Assembly (NCBI GenBank): GCA_038873195.1
Contig: JAVZEV010000001.1
Location: forward strand, 710,490 to 774,489
Direction of reading: 5' to 3'
Length of the DNA stretch: 64,000 nt
Origin: Candidatus Bathyarchaeia archaeon
GTDB taxonomy: Archaea > Thermoproteota > Bathyarchaeia > Bathyarchaeales > Bathycorpusculaceae
Position numbers and translations under genes: made by a program. The first letter of the stretch is position 1. Every line of letters begins with the position of its first letter. Shown one piece after another: positions 18,624-21,855 of the stretch. The notes beneath the pieces are model-generated. The model searched no databases. It worked only from the letters and a program-made list of their open reading frames with translations, and was not told where the DNA came from.

Positions 18624-20024
18624 ATGAACCTCCGATGCATCCAATGCGGTTCAAAATTTCCGCTTTATCCATTGAAAATTAAATGTGACAAATGCGAAGG
18701 ACCATTAGAGTATGATAGTGGTTTATCTAGAAATGGTAAAGTCAAGTTTTCTGGGCAATTACGTTTTTGGAGATACAAGCCTCTGCTTCCGCCAGTACGG
18801 CACATGGTAAGTCTAGGCGAAGGCGGAACGCCTCTGCACAAGGCAGAAAGGCTTGCCCAAAGCTTTGGATTGAAAGAGTTGTATTTGAAAGATGAAACCC
18901 GCAATCCGACAAACTCCTACAGAGACCGTGCAGCTGCTCTTCTCACATCAAACGCCATAGACCTCCATCATAACACGTTAATCTGTGCATCTAACGGAAA
19001 CATGGGCGCCTCTCTAGCTGCTTACTCTGCAAAGGCAGGATTAACATGCCACGTGATAGTGCCCAAGCTTGTTGATGTCGGAAAACTAGCCCAAATGCTT
19101 GCTTATGACGCAGTTATTGAAGAGTTCGGCGAAATCCTTGACGACTCCATACGCAAAGCCGAAGCTTTAGCCAATGAAACCGGTTGGTATCAAGCTACTG
19201 CGGAGCTGAATCCTCTTTCAATTGAAGCTCAGAAAACAATTTCCTATGAAGTGTGCGAACAGTTGGGCGTTCCAGATTGGCTCATAGTGTCTATAGGAAG
19301 TGGTGGAACCATCTACTCACTCTGGAAAGGGTTTAAGGAGCTTAAACAACTTGGAATAATAAAATCGTTGCCGAAAATGGTCGGCGTCCAACCAGAGGGT
19401 TGCGCATCCATAGTCAAAGCATTAAAAGAAGAATATGCCAAAGTGGAAAAAACACGAAATCCATCCACTCGTGCGCTCGCCATTTTAGTGGCAGACCCGT
19501 TGCAAGGTGAGTTAGCAATAAAAGCCTTAAAGGAATCGAATGGTTTAGCCTTGACTGTTTCAGACGCAGAAATTTTTGCAGCAGAGCTTCAAATAGCCAA
19601 ATTCGAAGGAATTTTCGCGGAACCAGCAAGCTCCGCTACAATTGCAGCATTGAAAAAACTCGTTGAGGAAGAAAAAATAGGCAGAAAAGACACTGTTGTA
19701 TCCTTAATTACGGGAAGCGGGCTCAAAGCCACAGACGTACTTCAAGCATTGACTAAAAAACAAAAAACAGCAGTCCTCGGCTTAGAACTGAGCACAAAAG
19801 AAAAGATATTGCGAGCCCTAAAAGAAAAAGACACGTATGGTTATGATTTGTGGAAAAAGCTGGGCAAAACAATGACGAGAGCAGCAATCTACCAACACCT
19901 CAGCGAGCTTTCAGAAAAAGGATTGATAACTGGTTATGAAAAAGAAAGGAAGAGGTTTTTTAAAATAACGCAACGAGGTAAAAAAGTTTTACATGCAATA
20001 GATGATGTGAAACTTCTGCTCTGA
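18624..20024 (+). CDS. Threonine-synthase-like PLP-fold protein fused to a C-terminal winged helix; usual PLP lysine absent
   Basis: 466 residues. A zinc-ribbon start (C5, C8, C21, C24) as in archaeal threonine synthases is followed by the fold-type II domain: KDETRNPTNSYRDR at 89-102, SNGNMGAS at 123-130, the phosphate loop GSGGT at 225-229 and TGSGLKATD near 363. In threonine synthase the Schiff-base lysine lies in the (S/T)FKDR motif; here position 100 is Arg (NSYRDR). Residues 390-466 form a PadR/ArsR-like winged helix (YGYDLWKKLG, AIYQHLSELSEKGLITGYEKERKRFFKI). An 8-bp inverted repeat lies just downstream, before an ECF transporter gene. The likely reading is a ligand-sensing regulator; an enzyme with autoregulation is the alternative. 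Confidence 0.85.
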   Translation: MNLRCIQCGSKFPLYPLKIKCDKCEGPLEYDSGLSRNGKVKFSGQLRFWRYKPLLPPVRHMVSLGEGGTPLHKAERLAQSFGLKELYLKDETRNPTNSYRDRAAALLTSNAIDLHHNTLICASNGNMGASLAAYSAKAGLTCHVIVPKLVDVGKLAQMLAYDAVIEEFGEILDDSIRKAEALANETGWYQATAELNPLSIEAQKTISYEVCEQLGVPDWLIVSIGSGGTIYSLWKGFKELKQLGIIKSLPKMVGVQPEGCASIVKALKEEYAKVEKTRNPSTRALAILVADPLQGELAIKALKESNGLALTVSDAEIFAAELQIAKFEGIFAEPASSATIAALKKLVEEEKIGRKDTVVSLITGSGLKATDVLQALTKKQKTAVLGLELSTKEKILRALKEKDTYGYDLWKKLGKTMTRAAIYQHLSELSEKGLITGYEKERKRFFKITQRGKKVLHAIDDVKLLL

Positions 20025-20039
20025 CTCGAAAAACTAATA

Positions 20040-20061
20040 TAGTATAGTTACAGCTATACTA
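20040..20061. promoter_or_regulatory. Inverted repeat TAGTATAG-N6-CTATACTA (probable operator)
   Basis: Perfect 8-bp arms separated by TTACAG, in the 41-nt gap between the threonine-synthase/winged-helix gene and the ECF transporter gene. Its TATAGTATAG-like arms overlap the expected TATA position of the transporter promoter, so occupancy would block transcription. A dimeric winged helix encoded just upstream is the natural candidate to bind. Confidence 0.65.
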
Positions 20062-20065
20062 AAAC

Positions 20066-20818
20066 GTGATAAAAATGCTGGTAAATAACAAAATGTCAAC
20101 ACGCAGTTTAGCAGTTACAGCAGTCTTCACAGCACTTGTTTGCGTTGTAACAATTCTCTTTTCCATATACGTACCTGCAACAGAAGGGTTCTTCAATATA
20201 GGCGAGTCCATGGTTTTTCTTTCCGCTCTTCTTTTTGGACCTTTCGTGGGAGCCTTCGCCGGCGGAGTAGGCTCAATGTTGGCTGACCTAATCTTAGGTT
20301 ATCCACACTACGCACCAGCCACGCTGATAATCAAGGCTTGTGAAGGCGCTGTTGTAGGAACACTTAAGAGGAAAAATCCGAGTTTCTGCACCAAGATTCA
20401 ATGGAAGTTTTTGACTTTAGCTTTAGGTATCGTTGCAGGTTTCTTGCTAGGCTGGGTTGGCACTACCCGTTATAGCGGCGACGTAGAACTCACACTAGGC
20501 TGGGGAACATTCGCCTTTTACGTTCCTCCAGAGGTATGGATAACGCTCGGAATAATAACAGCCTTAGCCATAGCTGCCCTAGGCCTTTTAACGGACCCAG
20601 AGTTTGGCTGGATGATTTTTTCAGTAATTGTCGGCGGCTTTGTCATGGTATTGGGATATTTCCTCTACCAAATGTTCCTAATTTACCCGCTCTTCCAAAT
20701 CGAAGTAGTAGCTATAACCGAGATTCCAGTAAATATTGGGCAGATGCTTATTGGACTAATCGTCGCAATACCTGTAGCGAAAATTGTTTTGCGGCGTCTA
20801 CCACAACTTAAAAGCTAA
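20066..20818 (+). CDS. ECF-type transporter substrate-binding (S) component
   Basis: 250 residues, six or more hydrophobic helices. The N-terminal helix LAVTAVFTALVCVVTILFS carries the AxxxA-type small-residue pattern used to dock with EcfT, followed by VPATEGFFNIGESMVFLSALLFGPFVGAFAGGVGSMLADL, typical of S-components for vitamins or their precursors. No EcfA or EcfT gene is adjacent, as in group II systems that share an energising module. The substrate is unknown; the neighbouring PLP-fold regulator hints at an amino acid or vitamin B6-type ligand (inference). Starts: GTG 20066 or ATG 20075. Confidence 0.8.
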   Translation: MIKMLVNNKMSTRSLAVTAVFTALVCVVTILFSIYVPATEGFFNIGESMVFLSALLFGPFVGAFAGGVGSMLADLILGYPHYAPATLIIKACEGAVVGTLKRKNPSFCTKIQWKFLTLALGIVAGFLLGWVGTTRYSGDVELTLGWGTFAFYVPPEVWITLGIITALAIAALGLLTDPEFGWMIFSVIVGGFVMVLGYFLYQMFLIYPLFQIEVVAITEIPVNIGQMLIGLIVAIPVAKIVLRRLPQLKS

Positions 20819-20847: not shown

Positions 20848-21855
20848 ATGGAACTACCATTTGGCAAAATTCCCATAGACATCTTGAGAGAGGTCGTTTT
20901 CAAAAATTTAGGTGTAAAACGCAAAGAAGTCGTTTTAGGTCCCTCCGTTGGAATCGATGGCGCCGTGATAGATGCTGGTGATAAGTCACTGATTGTTTCA
21001 ATGGACCCCATCACCGGAGCATTAGAACGCATAGGCTGGCTCGCAGTAAACATCAACGCAAACGACATCTCAACATTTGGCGTAGAACCAGCATTTTTCT
21101 TCTCATGCATACTGCTTCCAGAAAAAGCAGACAAAAAAGCCGTTGAAACTATATGCATCCAAATGGATAAAGCCGCAAAACAGTTGGGAATGGCAATAGC
21201 CGGAGGACATTGCGAAGTAGCTCTTGGACTGTCACACCCAATAGTTGTGGGCTGCGCAATGGGCATAACAGAAAAAGGAAAATATGTAACAGCAGGCGGC
21301 GCTAAACCCGGAGACAAATTAATAATGACCAAAACCGCGGCAATCGAAGGCACAGCTATACTCGCCTCGGACAAAGAACAACAATTAAAAAAAGCCATTA
21401 ATGCATCACTATTGAAAAAAGCTAAAAAGTTTTTCTACCAAATAAGCGTCGTCAAAGAAGCCATAACCGCCTACAAAACAGGCGGCGTCAACGCCATGCA
21501 CGACCCAACCGAAGGCGGAATAGCAGGAGGAATACACGAAATGGCAGACGCATCAAACCTAGGCTTCAAAATCTTCGAAGAGAAAATTCCAATAAGTAAA
21601 GAAACCTTGGAAATATGCAAATTCTTCAAAATTGATCCATTACAATTAATCAGCTCTGGAGCCTTATTAATCTCTGCTAAACCAGAAATTGCAACAAAAA
21701 TAACTGACCGCCTAGAAGAACAACAGATTCGCGCATCTATTATCGGTGAATTCTCAAAGAACTCGCATAAACGTATAATCGTAAAGGAAGGGGGCAAAAT
21801 CAGTGCTTTACCAAGACCTTTATCTGATCACCTTTGGACTGCCATTCAAAGATGA
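20848..21855 (+). CDS. AIR synthase-related protein (HypE/COG1973-like)
   Basis: 335 residues of the PurM/HypE superfamily: LGPSVGIDGAVIDAG near residue 31, SMDPITGA, ANDISTFGVEPAFF, AGGHCEVA and HDPTEGGIAGGIHEM. These are ATP- and metal-binding loops. It lacks the C-terminal PRIC tail of true HypE, which is present separately at 40258, so the role is not the HypE thiocyanate step; it may act in another ATP-dependent dehydration or phosphorylation. The ATG follows GAGGGTTAAC. Its 3' end overlaps the convergent glycosyltransferase by 36 nt. Confidence 0.8.
   Translation: MELPFGKIPIDILREVVFKNLGVKRKEVVLGPSVGIDGAVIDAGDKSLIVSMDPITGALERIGWLAVNINANDISTFGVEPAFFFSCILLPEKADKKAVETICIQMDKAAKQLGMAIAGGHCEVALGLSHPIVVGCAMGITEKGKYVTAGGAKPGDKLIMTKTAAIEGTAILASDKEQQLKKAINASLLKKAKKFFYQISVVKEAITAYKTGGVNAMHDPTEGGIAGGIHEMADASNLGFKIFEEKIPISKETLEICKFFKIDPLQLISSGALLISAKPEIATKITDRLEEQQIRASIIGEFSKNSHKRIIVKEGGKISALPRPLSDHLWTAIQR

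Follow-up and report, generated by a model that had tools for sequence, protein, structure and literature searches.

The window analysed here is a stretch of 64,000 nucleotides from the genome of a Candidatus Bathyarchaeia archaeon. It carries a gene whose product joins a zinc ribbon, a degenerate threonine-synthase domain and a winged helix in a single chain of 466 residues (ORF 18624–20024, + strand), followed by a palindromic repeat and two genes on the same strand. The features considered are:

18624..20024, + strand: fusion gene (zinc ribbon, degenerate threonine-synthase (PALP) domain and PadR-like winged helix), encoding a proposed B6-responsive repressor; from ORF, Pfam and model
18636..18695, + strand: zinc ribbon, with Cys5, Cys8, Cys21 and Cys24 invariant in 45 relatives
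18807..19715, + strand: PALP fold-type-II domain, residues 62–364, a proposed PLP sensor; from Pfam and alignment
18921..18923, + strand: codon of Arg100, which stands where threonine synthases have the Schiff-base lysine (Lys61 in the Thermus enzyme); from alignment
19791..20018, + strand: winged helix, residues 390–465, plus C-terminal helix; from Pfam, relatives and an AlphaFold2 model
20030..20039, + strand: A-rich, TATA-like stretch entering the operator, which we infer to be the BRE/TATA of the ECF gene
20040..20061, no strand assigned: candidate 22-bp operator TAGTATAG-TTACAG-CTATACTA; an exact site, conserved in relatives
20066..20818, + strand: ECF S-component, HmpT/PdxU2-like, proposed to be a target gene that encodes a vitamin B6 transporter; from PF07155, PDB and Foldseek
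20848..21855, + strand: AIRS (ThiL/HypE-like) gene, possibly co-transcribed; from Pfam/NCBIfam and neighbourhoods

A preliminary description of this DNA had recognized the zinc ribbon, the GSGGT and SNGNMGAS loops of threonine synthase and a complete winged helix from residue 390, and each of these elements was borne out. The four cysteines of the ribbon show no variation in an alignment of 45 relatives, the motifs IGSGGT and ASNGNMGAS are both present, and Pfam places the PALP domain at residues 62–364 (E=1.2e-75) and a PadR match (PF03551) at residues 395–457 (E=3.8e-10; 40.1 bits against a gathering cut-off of 27). The AlphaFold2 model (mean pLDDT 89.6) contains a complete winged helix made of helices 391–401, 406–412 and 419–431 and wing strands 435–440 and 443–448, with a long C-terminal helix at 450–465. 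The preliminary description had also asked whether the winged helix is conserved in relatives, and the alignment indicates that it is. The best solved fold relatives found by Foldseek are threonine synthases (E=1.1e-32), and the NCBIfam profile PRK05638, named ‘threonine synthase', spans the whole protein, winged helix included, at a score of 396.8 bits that lies below the curated cut-off of 421. This full-length match and the retention of the fold and its PLP loops are what favour a working threonine synthase, or some other enzyme that uses PLP, with an incidental DNA-binding domain.

The residue expected to hold the cofactor is not a lysine. Arg100, within the motif NPTNSYRDR, aligns with Lys61 of the Thermus enzyme, as first proposed, and the equivalent position is Arg in 80 of 80 close fusions. 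Most fusions at large also have Arg, including members that score above the PRK05638 cut-off, while Ile, Leu, Met, Val, Thr, Ala or Phe occupies the position in a second clade and in scattered fusions. As to the earlier suspicion that this Arg might already be known in archaeal paralogues, Arg is not confined to this genome and is typical of the PRK05638 family. A lysine elsewhere that fills the PLP site was sought in the alignment of the enzyme domain of the fusions and none has been gained; the conserved lysines of this domain are also those of true threonine synthases. A minority of fusions retain the lysine, namely one Bathyarchaeia group and one Lokiarchaeote (L092, L093, L164–L173, L177 and L178), and its loss is therefore not required for function. 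Some of these, L165–L167 and L178, still adjoin an ECF S-gene, and we therefore rejected lysine loss as the general step that made a regulator; a single family may include covalent as well as non-covalent sensors. One lysine-keeping fusion, L166, has an operator-like site at its neighbouring ECF S-gene.

The rest of the pocket divides into two groups of residues. Thermus Asn87 and Thr317, which we take to contact the PLP ring, align with Asn126 and Thr363 of the window protein, which retains these together with Gly225/Gly227 among the PLP contacts of threonine synthase. Thermus Thr88, Asn154, Ser155 and Arg160, presumably the residues that receive the phosphate of O-phosphohomoserine, align with Met127, Ala193, Glu194 and Ser199. 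A comparison of 14 true threonine synthases with about 120 fusions showed that the latter nearly always keep Asn87 and Thr317, as well as the glycines of the PLP-phosphate loop. All 14 true enzymes have Arg160, which is absent among the residues listed for every fusion class, in a comparison whose ‘other' and ‘K' sets include at least two proteins that do not belong there (L090_8 and L191_7). As judged from the alignments, the cofactor site appears to be under selection and the substrate site does not. A retained PLP pocket combined with lost substrate-phosphate residues is the pattern expected of a PLP sensor.

The fusion is widespread, as the search for it in other archaea that had been suggested at the outset revealed, and most of its members carry the Arg. 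It occurs in 36 of the 91 genomes of the window's family, in some as fragments, and full-length fusions are found across many families in a 398-genome sample of the phylum. Fusions span Bathyarchaeia, Desulfurococcales-like archaea, Asgards and Thermococci; named genomes, when scanned, contributed further ones from Thorarchaeota, Lokiarchaeota, Freyarchaeota, Thermococci, Methanomicrobia and Pyrodictiaceae. In a tree from which two long, mis-swept rows were left out, a single branch divides the fusions from the threonine synthases (SH-aLRT 99), and the lysine was gained or lost at least three times. No S-gene adjoins the fusions of Thermococci and of some Bathyarchaeia.

True threonine synthases coexist with the fusion. 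In several relatives a gene with the motif SFKDRG lies divergent to it (L079, L081, L087, L088, L090, L091, L122, L126 and L056), an arrangement seen within one Bathyarchaeia family and perhaps a relic of the duplication from which the fusion arose. The window genome itself has a separate SFKDR threonine-synthase-like gene (L002:1468-2577, − strand); its product aligns poorly at the site of Thermus Arg160 and sits on a very long branch, and whether it is active as a threonine synthase is uncertain. These separate genes, the substitution of the lysine (Arg in every close fusion and Ile, Leu, Met, Thr or Ala elsewhere), the lack of a replacement in the alignment and the loss of all four substrate-phosphate residues together make it extremely unlikely that the fusion is a threonine synthase or other working PLP enzyme. 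The descent of the fusion from threonine synthase and its divergent neighbour in one family instead lend some colour to the idea that it regulates amino-acid genes in response to an amino acid or the phosphate of one (threonine or O-phosphohomoserine). We consider this very unlikely, given that the residues for the substrate phosphate are lost and that the sites we mapped, described below, precede a B6-type S-gene or pdxST. As for thrC as a target, no operator within 4 mismatches lies between the fusion and the divergent threonine synthase gene, and this candidate was rejected.

The inverted repeat noticed beside the gene is real. The arrangement TAGTATAG-N6-CTATACTA lies after the fusion gene and in front of the ECF S-component gene, and the complete palindrome TAGTATAGTTACAGCTATACTA is exact at 20040–20061, sixteen bases past the fusion stop. 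It is the sole match in the window, where 0.03 would be expected at up to 3 mismatches, and the next-best match in the 1.63-Mb genome has 3 mismatches. The palindrome is not a product of chance because it is conserved in relatives, nearly all close ones having it between the fusion and the ECF gene. The consensus over 46 distinct sites is TAGTATAGTTnnAACTATACTA, with 20 conserved positions and variable flanks. In several copies the palindrome is perfect over all 22 bp and has no loop, and symmetric changes, such as TAGTAAAGTTATAACTTTACTA in L123, preserve the symmetry; both features are typical of a DNA site that a dimer binds.

Occurrence of the site follows that of the fusion. With no more than one mismatch allowed in the arms, an operator copy is present in 30 of 36 fusion genomes of the family and in none of the 55 others (Fisher p=2e-18), which answers the question of the preliminary description whether the repeat persists in relatives that keep the fusion. 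In the order as a whole, the strict site occurs in 46 of 163 genomes, all 46 of which carry the fusion. Where genes intervene (L071, L082, L084 and L087), the operator sits by the transporter, 12–135 bp before the S-gene; in one genome (G437) the S-gene lies on another contig, unlinked to the fusion, and is still preceded by the operator, and in another (G527) two S-paralogues each have one. The operator follows a TATA-like A/T stretch and in most cases ends 0–45 bases before the start codon, a position that would suit a repressor. An exact copy also precedes a 305-residue ECF S-like membrane protein unlinked to the fusion (L210:5009-5926 in G047), with PF07155 in its C-terminal half and a ThiL-like gene following.

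That the fusion is what binds this operator is something we infer, and a site of this kind is usually lacking ahead of the fusion gene; the palindrome might then belong to some other regulator, or be an RNA element, with the fusion an unrelated neighbour. The restriction of the operator to fusion genomes, even where the target is unlinked, argues against this, and perfect loopless 22-bp palindromes suit the DNA site of a dimer and not a hairpin, such that we give a chance neighbourhood very little credence. Beyond close relatives the operator has drifted or been replaced. In a hyperthermophile-like family a related palindrome, TCTTAAAGTTTAAACTTTAATA, lies in the spacer in the same frame. Divergent ECF genes characterize one clade, and there the interval between the two genes repeatedly contains a different element, GCCTATATATAGGC. 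A near-match in one genome (G046), TAGTATAGATTTTTCTATATTA, has no TT..AA core and no B6 gene nearby and was dismissed as chance.

The gene behind the operator is an ECF transporter gene, as had been recognized, and its product at 20066–20818 is an S-component of family PF07155. The only relative of its profile in the PDB is 4hzu_S (HmpT/PdxU2; E=4.8e-19), which is also its top Foldseek match, at a low identity of 21%. Pyridoxamine has been extracted from HmpT/PdxU2 and identified by mass spectrometry (PMC4860826). Among the HmpT pocket residues Glu41, His84, Tyr120, Asn140 and Gln143, four of five are conserved, Glu41, Tyr120, Asn140 and Gln143 aligning with conserved E47, Y198, N223 and Q226, and His84 is replaced by Lys. 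The archaeal S-components thus resemble HmpT/PdxU2 (4HZU) in sequence, in fold and in these four residues, and differ from it in their longer loops, in the Lys at His84, at Trp76 and at Ser136, where they have Glu. The lysine at the His84 position, residue 90 of the S-component, is invariant, and it could contact pyridoxal or form a Schiff base with it. By these likenesses to a distant homologue the substrate is probably vitamin B6.

The S-component's Pfam name is ‘riboflavin transporter', and a ThiL/HypE-like AIRS gene often follows it, which would fit a regulator concerned with riboflavin or thiamine, whose transporter we had mis-assigned to B6. Yet PF07155 takes in PdxU and PdxU2/HmpT, both transporters of B6, a vitamin for which the substrates of few transporters have been verified (PMC9997740). 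With HmpT the sole PDB match, an operator before pdxST, and riboflavin synthase tending to occur with the fusion and not to be missing, another vitamin is a highly improbable choice. Riboflavin as the ECF substrate was rejected on the PDB match and a RibH control. The AIRS gene is often in the same run as the S-gene (cluster c3, 18 neighbourhoods); its product scores below the ThiL and HypE family cut-offs and is a candidate kinase for the imported vitamin.

A second line of evidence connects the operator to B6 synthesis. In one genome only (G019), a second exact operator lies 17–18 bp before pdxS-pdxT, the products of which both exceed their NCBIfam cut-offs. Operator-like sites matching at 15–16 of 20 positions lie 3–8 bp before pdxS in G026, G140 and G338, the three remaining Bathyarchaeia genomes in the sample that combine the fusion with PdxS; none was found before pdxS in two fusion-less controls. 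Scores of 15 or more should arise 0.0025 times in 60 bp; genuine sites contribute to this figure, which makes it an upper bound.

PdxS was sought in the window genome and is absent, and it is missing in 21 of the 23 fusion genomes, mostly Asgards and Thermococci, of the named-genome scan. In the hyperthermophile-like family, PdxS occurs in 2 of 25 fusion genomes compared with 7 of 15 others (p=0.008, uncorrected for phylogeny; p=0.08 in genomes at least 90% complete). Riboflavin synthase has the opposite tendency in the same family. We claim no operator before pdxS in this family, since the pdxS starts of two of its fusion genomes (L217 and L218) are uncertain. In one genome with PdxS (G269), an 85-codon remnant of the fusion that comprises only the zinc ribbon precedes an intact ECF S-gene (L216:5003-5260); this remnant reflects a recent loss of the regulator. 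Several of the fusion-less PdxS regions of hyperthermophile-like archaea (L222–L227) have another palindrome, TATTGAACGTTCAATAA, upstream of pdxS, perhaps the site of another B6 regulator.

Taking together the computed fold, the lysine loss, the retained PLP residues and lost substrate residues, the palindrome, its co-occurrence with the fusion and its position before B6-transporter-like genes and pdxST, we consider it very probable that the fusion is a one-component repressor of vitamin B6 acquisition that senses PLP or another B6 vitamer and has the 22-bp palindrome as its operator. The preliminary description had proposed a degenerate enzyme acting as a MocR-like sensor that binds DNA; the overall plan, the repeat as operator and the ECF gene as target stand, and the ligand can be narrowed. 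It had listed an amino acid, its phosphate or PLP as candidates, of which the amino acid and its phosphate find no support, the phosphate residues being lost, and PLP/B6 is favoured by the retained PLP residues, the HmpT/PdxU2-like gene and the operator before pdxST. PLP, or another B6 vitamer, is the predicted ligand.

We envisage that the sensor is a threonine synthase that lacks the catalytic lysine and the substrate-phosphate site and has retained its PLP pocket. When plentiful, PLP, or another B6 vitamer, would occupy the old cofactor site, in most members with no covalent bond because the lysine is gone, and would act as a putative co-repressor. The protein, presumably a dimer, would then bind the 22-bp palindrome directly through its PadR-like winged helices, overlapping the start region of the S-gene, and would likewise bind the palindrome at pdxST where one is present. 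Bound in this way, it would block transcription of the S-gene or pdxST for as long as B6 is plentiful, and falling PLP would cause it to release the DNA.

More broadly, the fusions are likely to represent an ancient archaeal class of B6 regulators, built on a fold-type-II enzyme with its lysine replaced, sensing PLP non-covalently, independent of PdxR in origin while serving the same regulon of pdxST and a PdxU-type transporter, and filed as threonine synthase. If this is true, archaea, Asgards included, own a dedicated B6 control system whose regulon and plan are convergent with those of bacterial PdxR on a different PLP fold; an enzyme would have become a sensor through loss of its catalytic lysine with the cofactor pocket kept, and a substrate would be predicted for a whole archaeal ECF transporter family. 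Many archaeal ‘threonine synthase' annotations would probably denote non-enzymes, affecting metabolic reconstructions. We found no earlier report of such a B6 regulator in the open-access literature, outside which subscription papers largely lie.

The fusion can be placed against four known systems. It shares with threonine synthase (Thermus 1UIM, Bacillus 6NMX) the fold and the PLP contacts Asn87 and Thr317, and differs in the replacement of Lys61, Thr88, Asn154, Ser155 and Arg160 and in the added winged helix. Members of PRK05638 (NF004170 in NCBIfam) over the cut-off, such as L035 and L199, are these same fusions, winged helix included; the family name denotes an enzyme, whereas in the members examined Arg replaces the catalytic lysine and the substrate residues are missing. 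ThiR-type archaeal regulators consist of a winged helix and a ThiN domain and belong to thiamine. They resemble the fusion as archaeal regulators built from the enzyme domain of a vitamin pathway, and differ from it in the vitamin and in the enzyme fold. Bacterial MocR/PdxR likewise joins a winged helix to a PLP-enzyme fold, and we predict that the fusion shares its sensing of PLP. PdxR regulons include pdxST, pdxK and pdxU, and MocR factors are described as ‘not present in Archaea' (PMC5320631); proposed operators of the fusion lie before pdxST (exact in one genome, imperfect in three) and before HmpT-like genes throughout. However, the winged helix of PdxR is N-terminal and of GntR type, whereas that of the fusion is C-terminal, has PadR as its best Pfam match and gave no GntR match in Pfam, and the PdxR sensor is a fold-type-I aminotransferase, whereas that of the fusion is of fold-type II and mostly without the Schiff-base lysine. 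The fusion is no member of the MocR family, and its likeness to PdxR is one of convergence.
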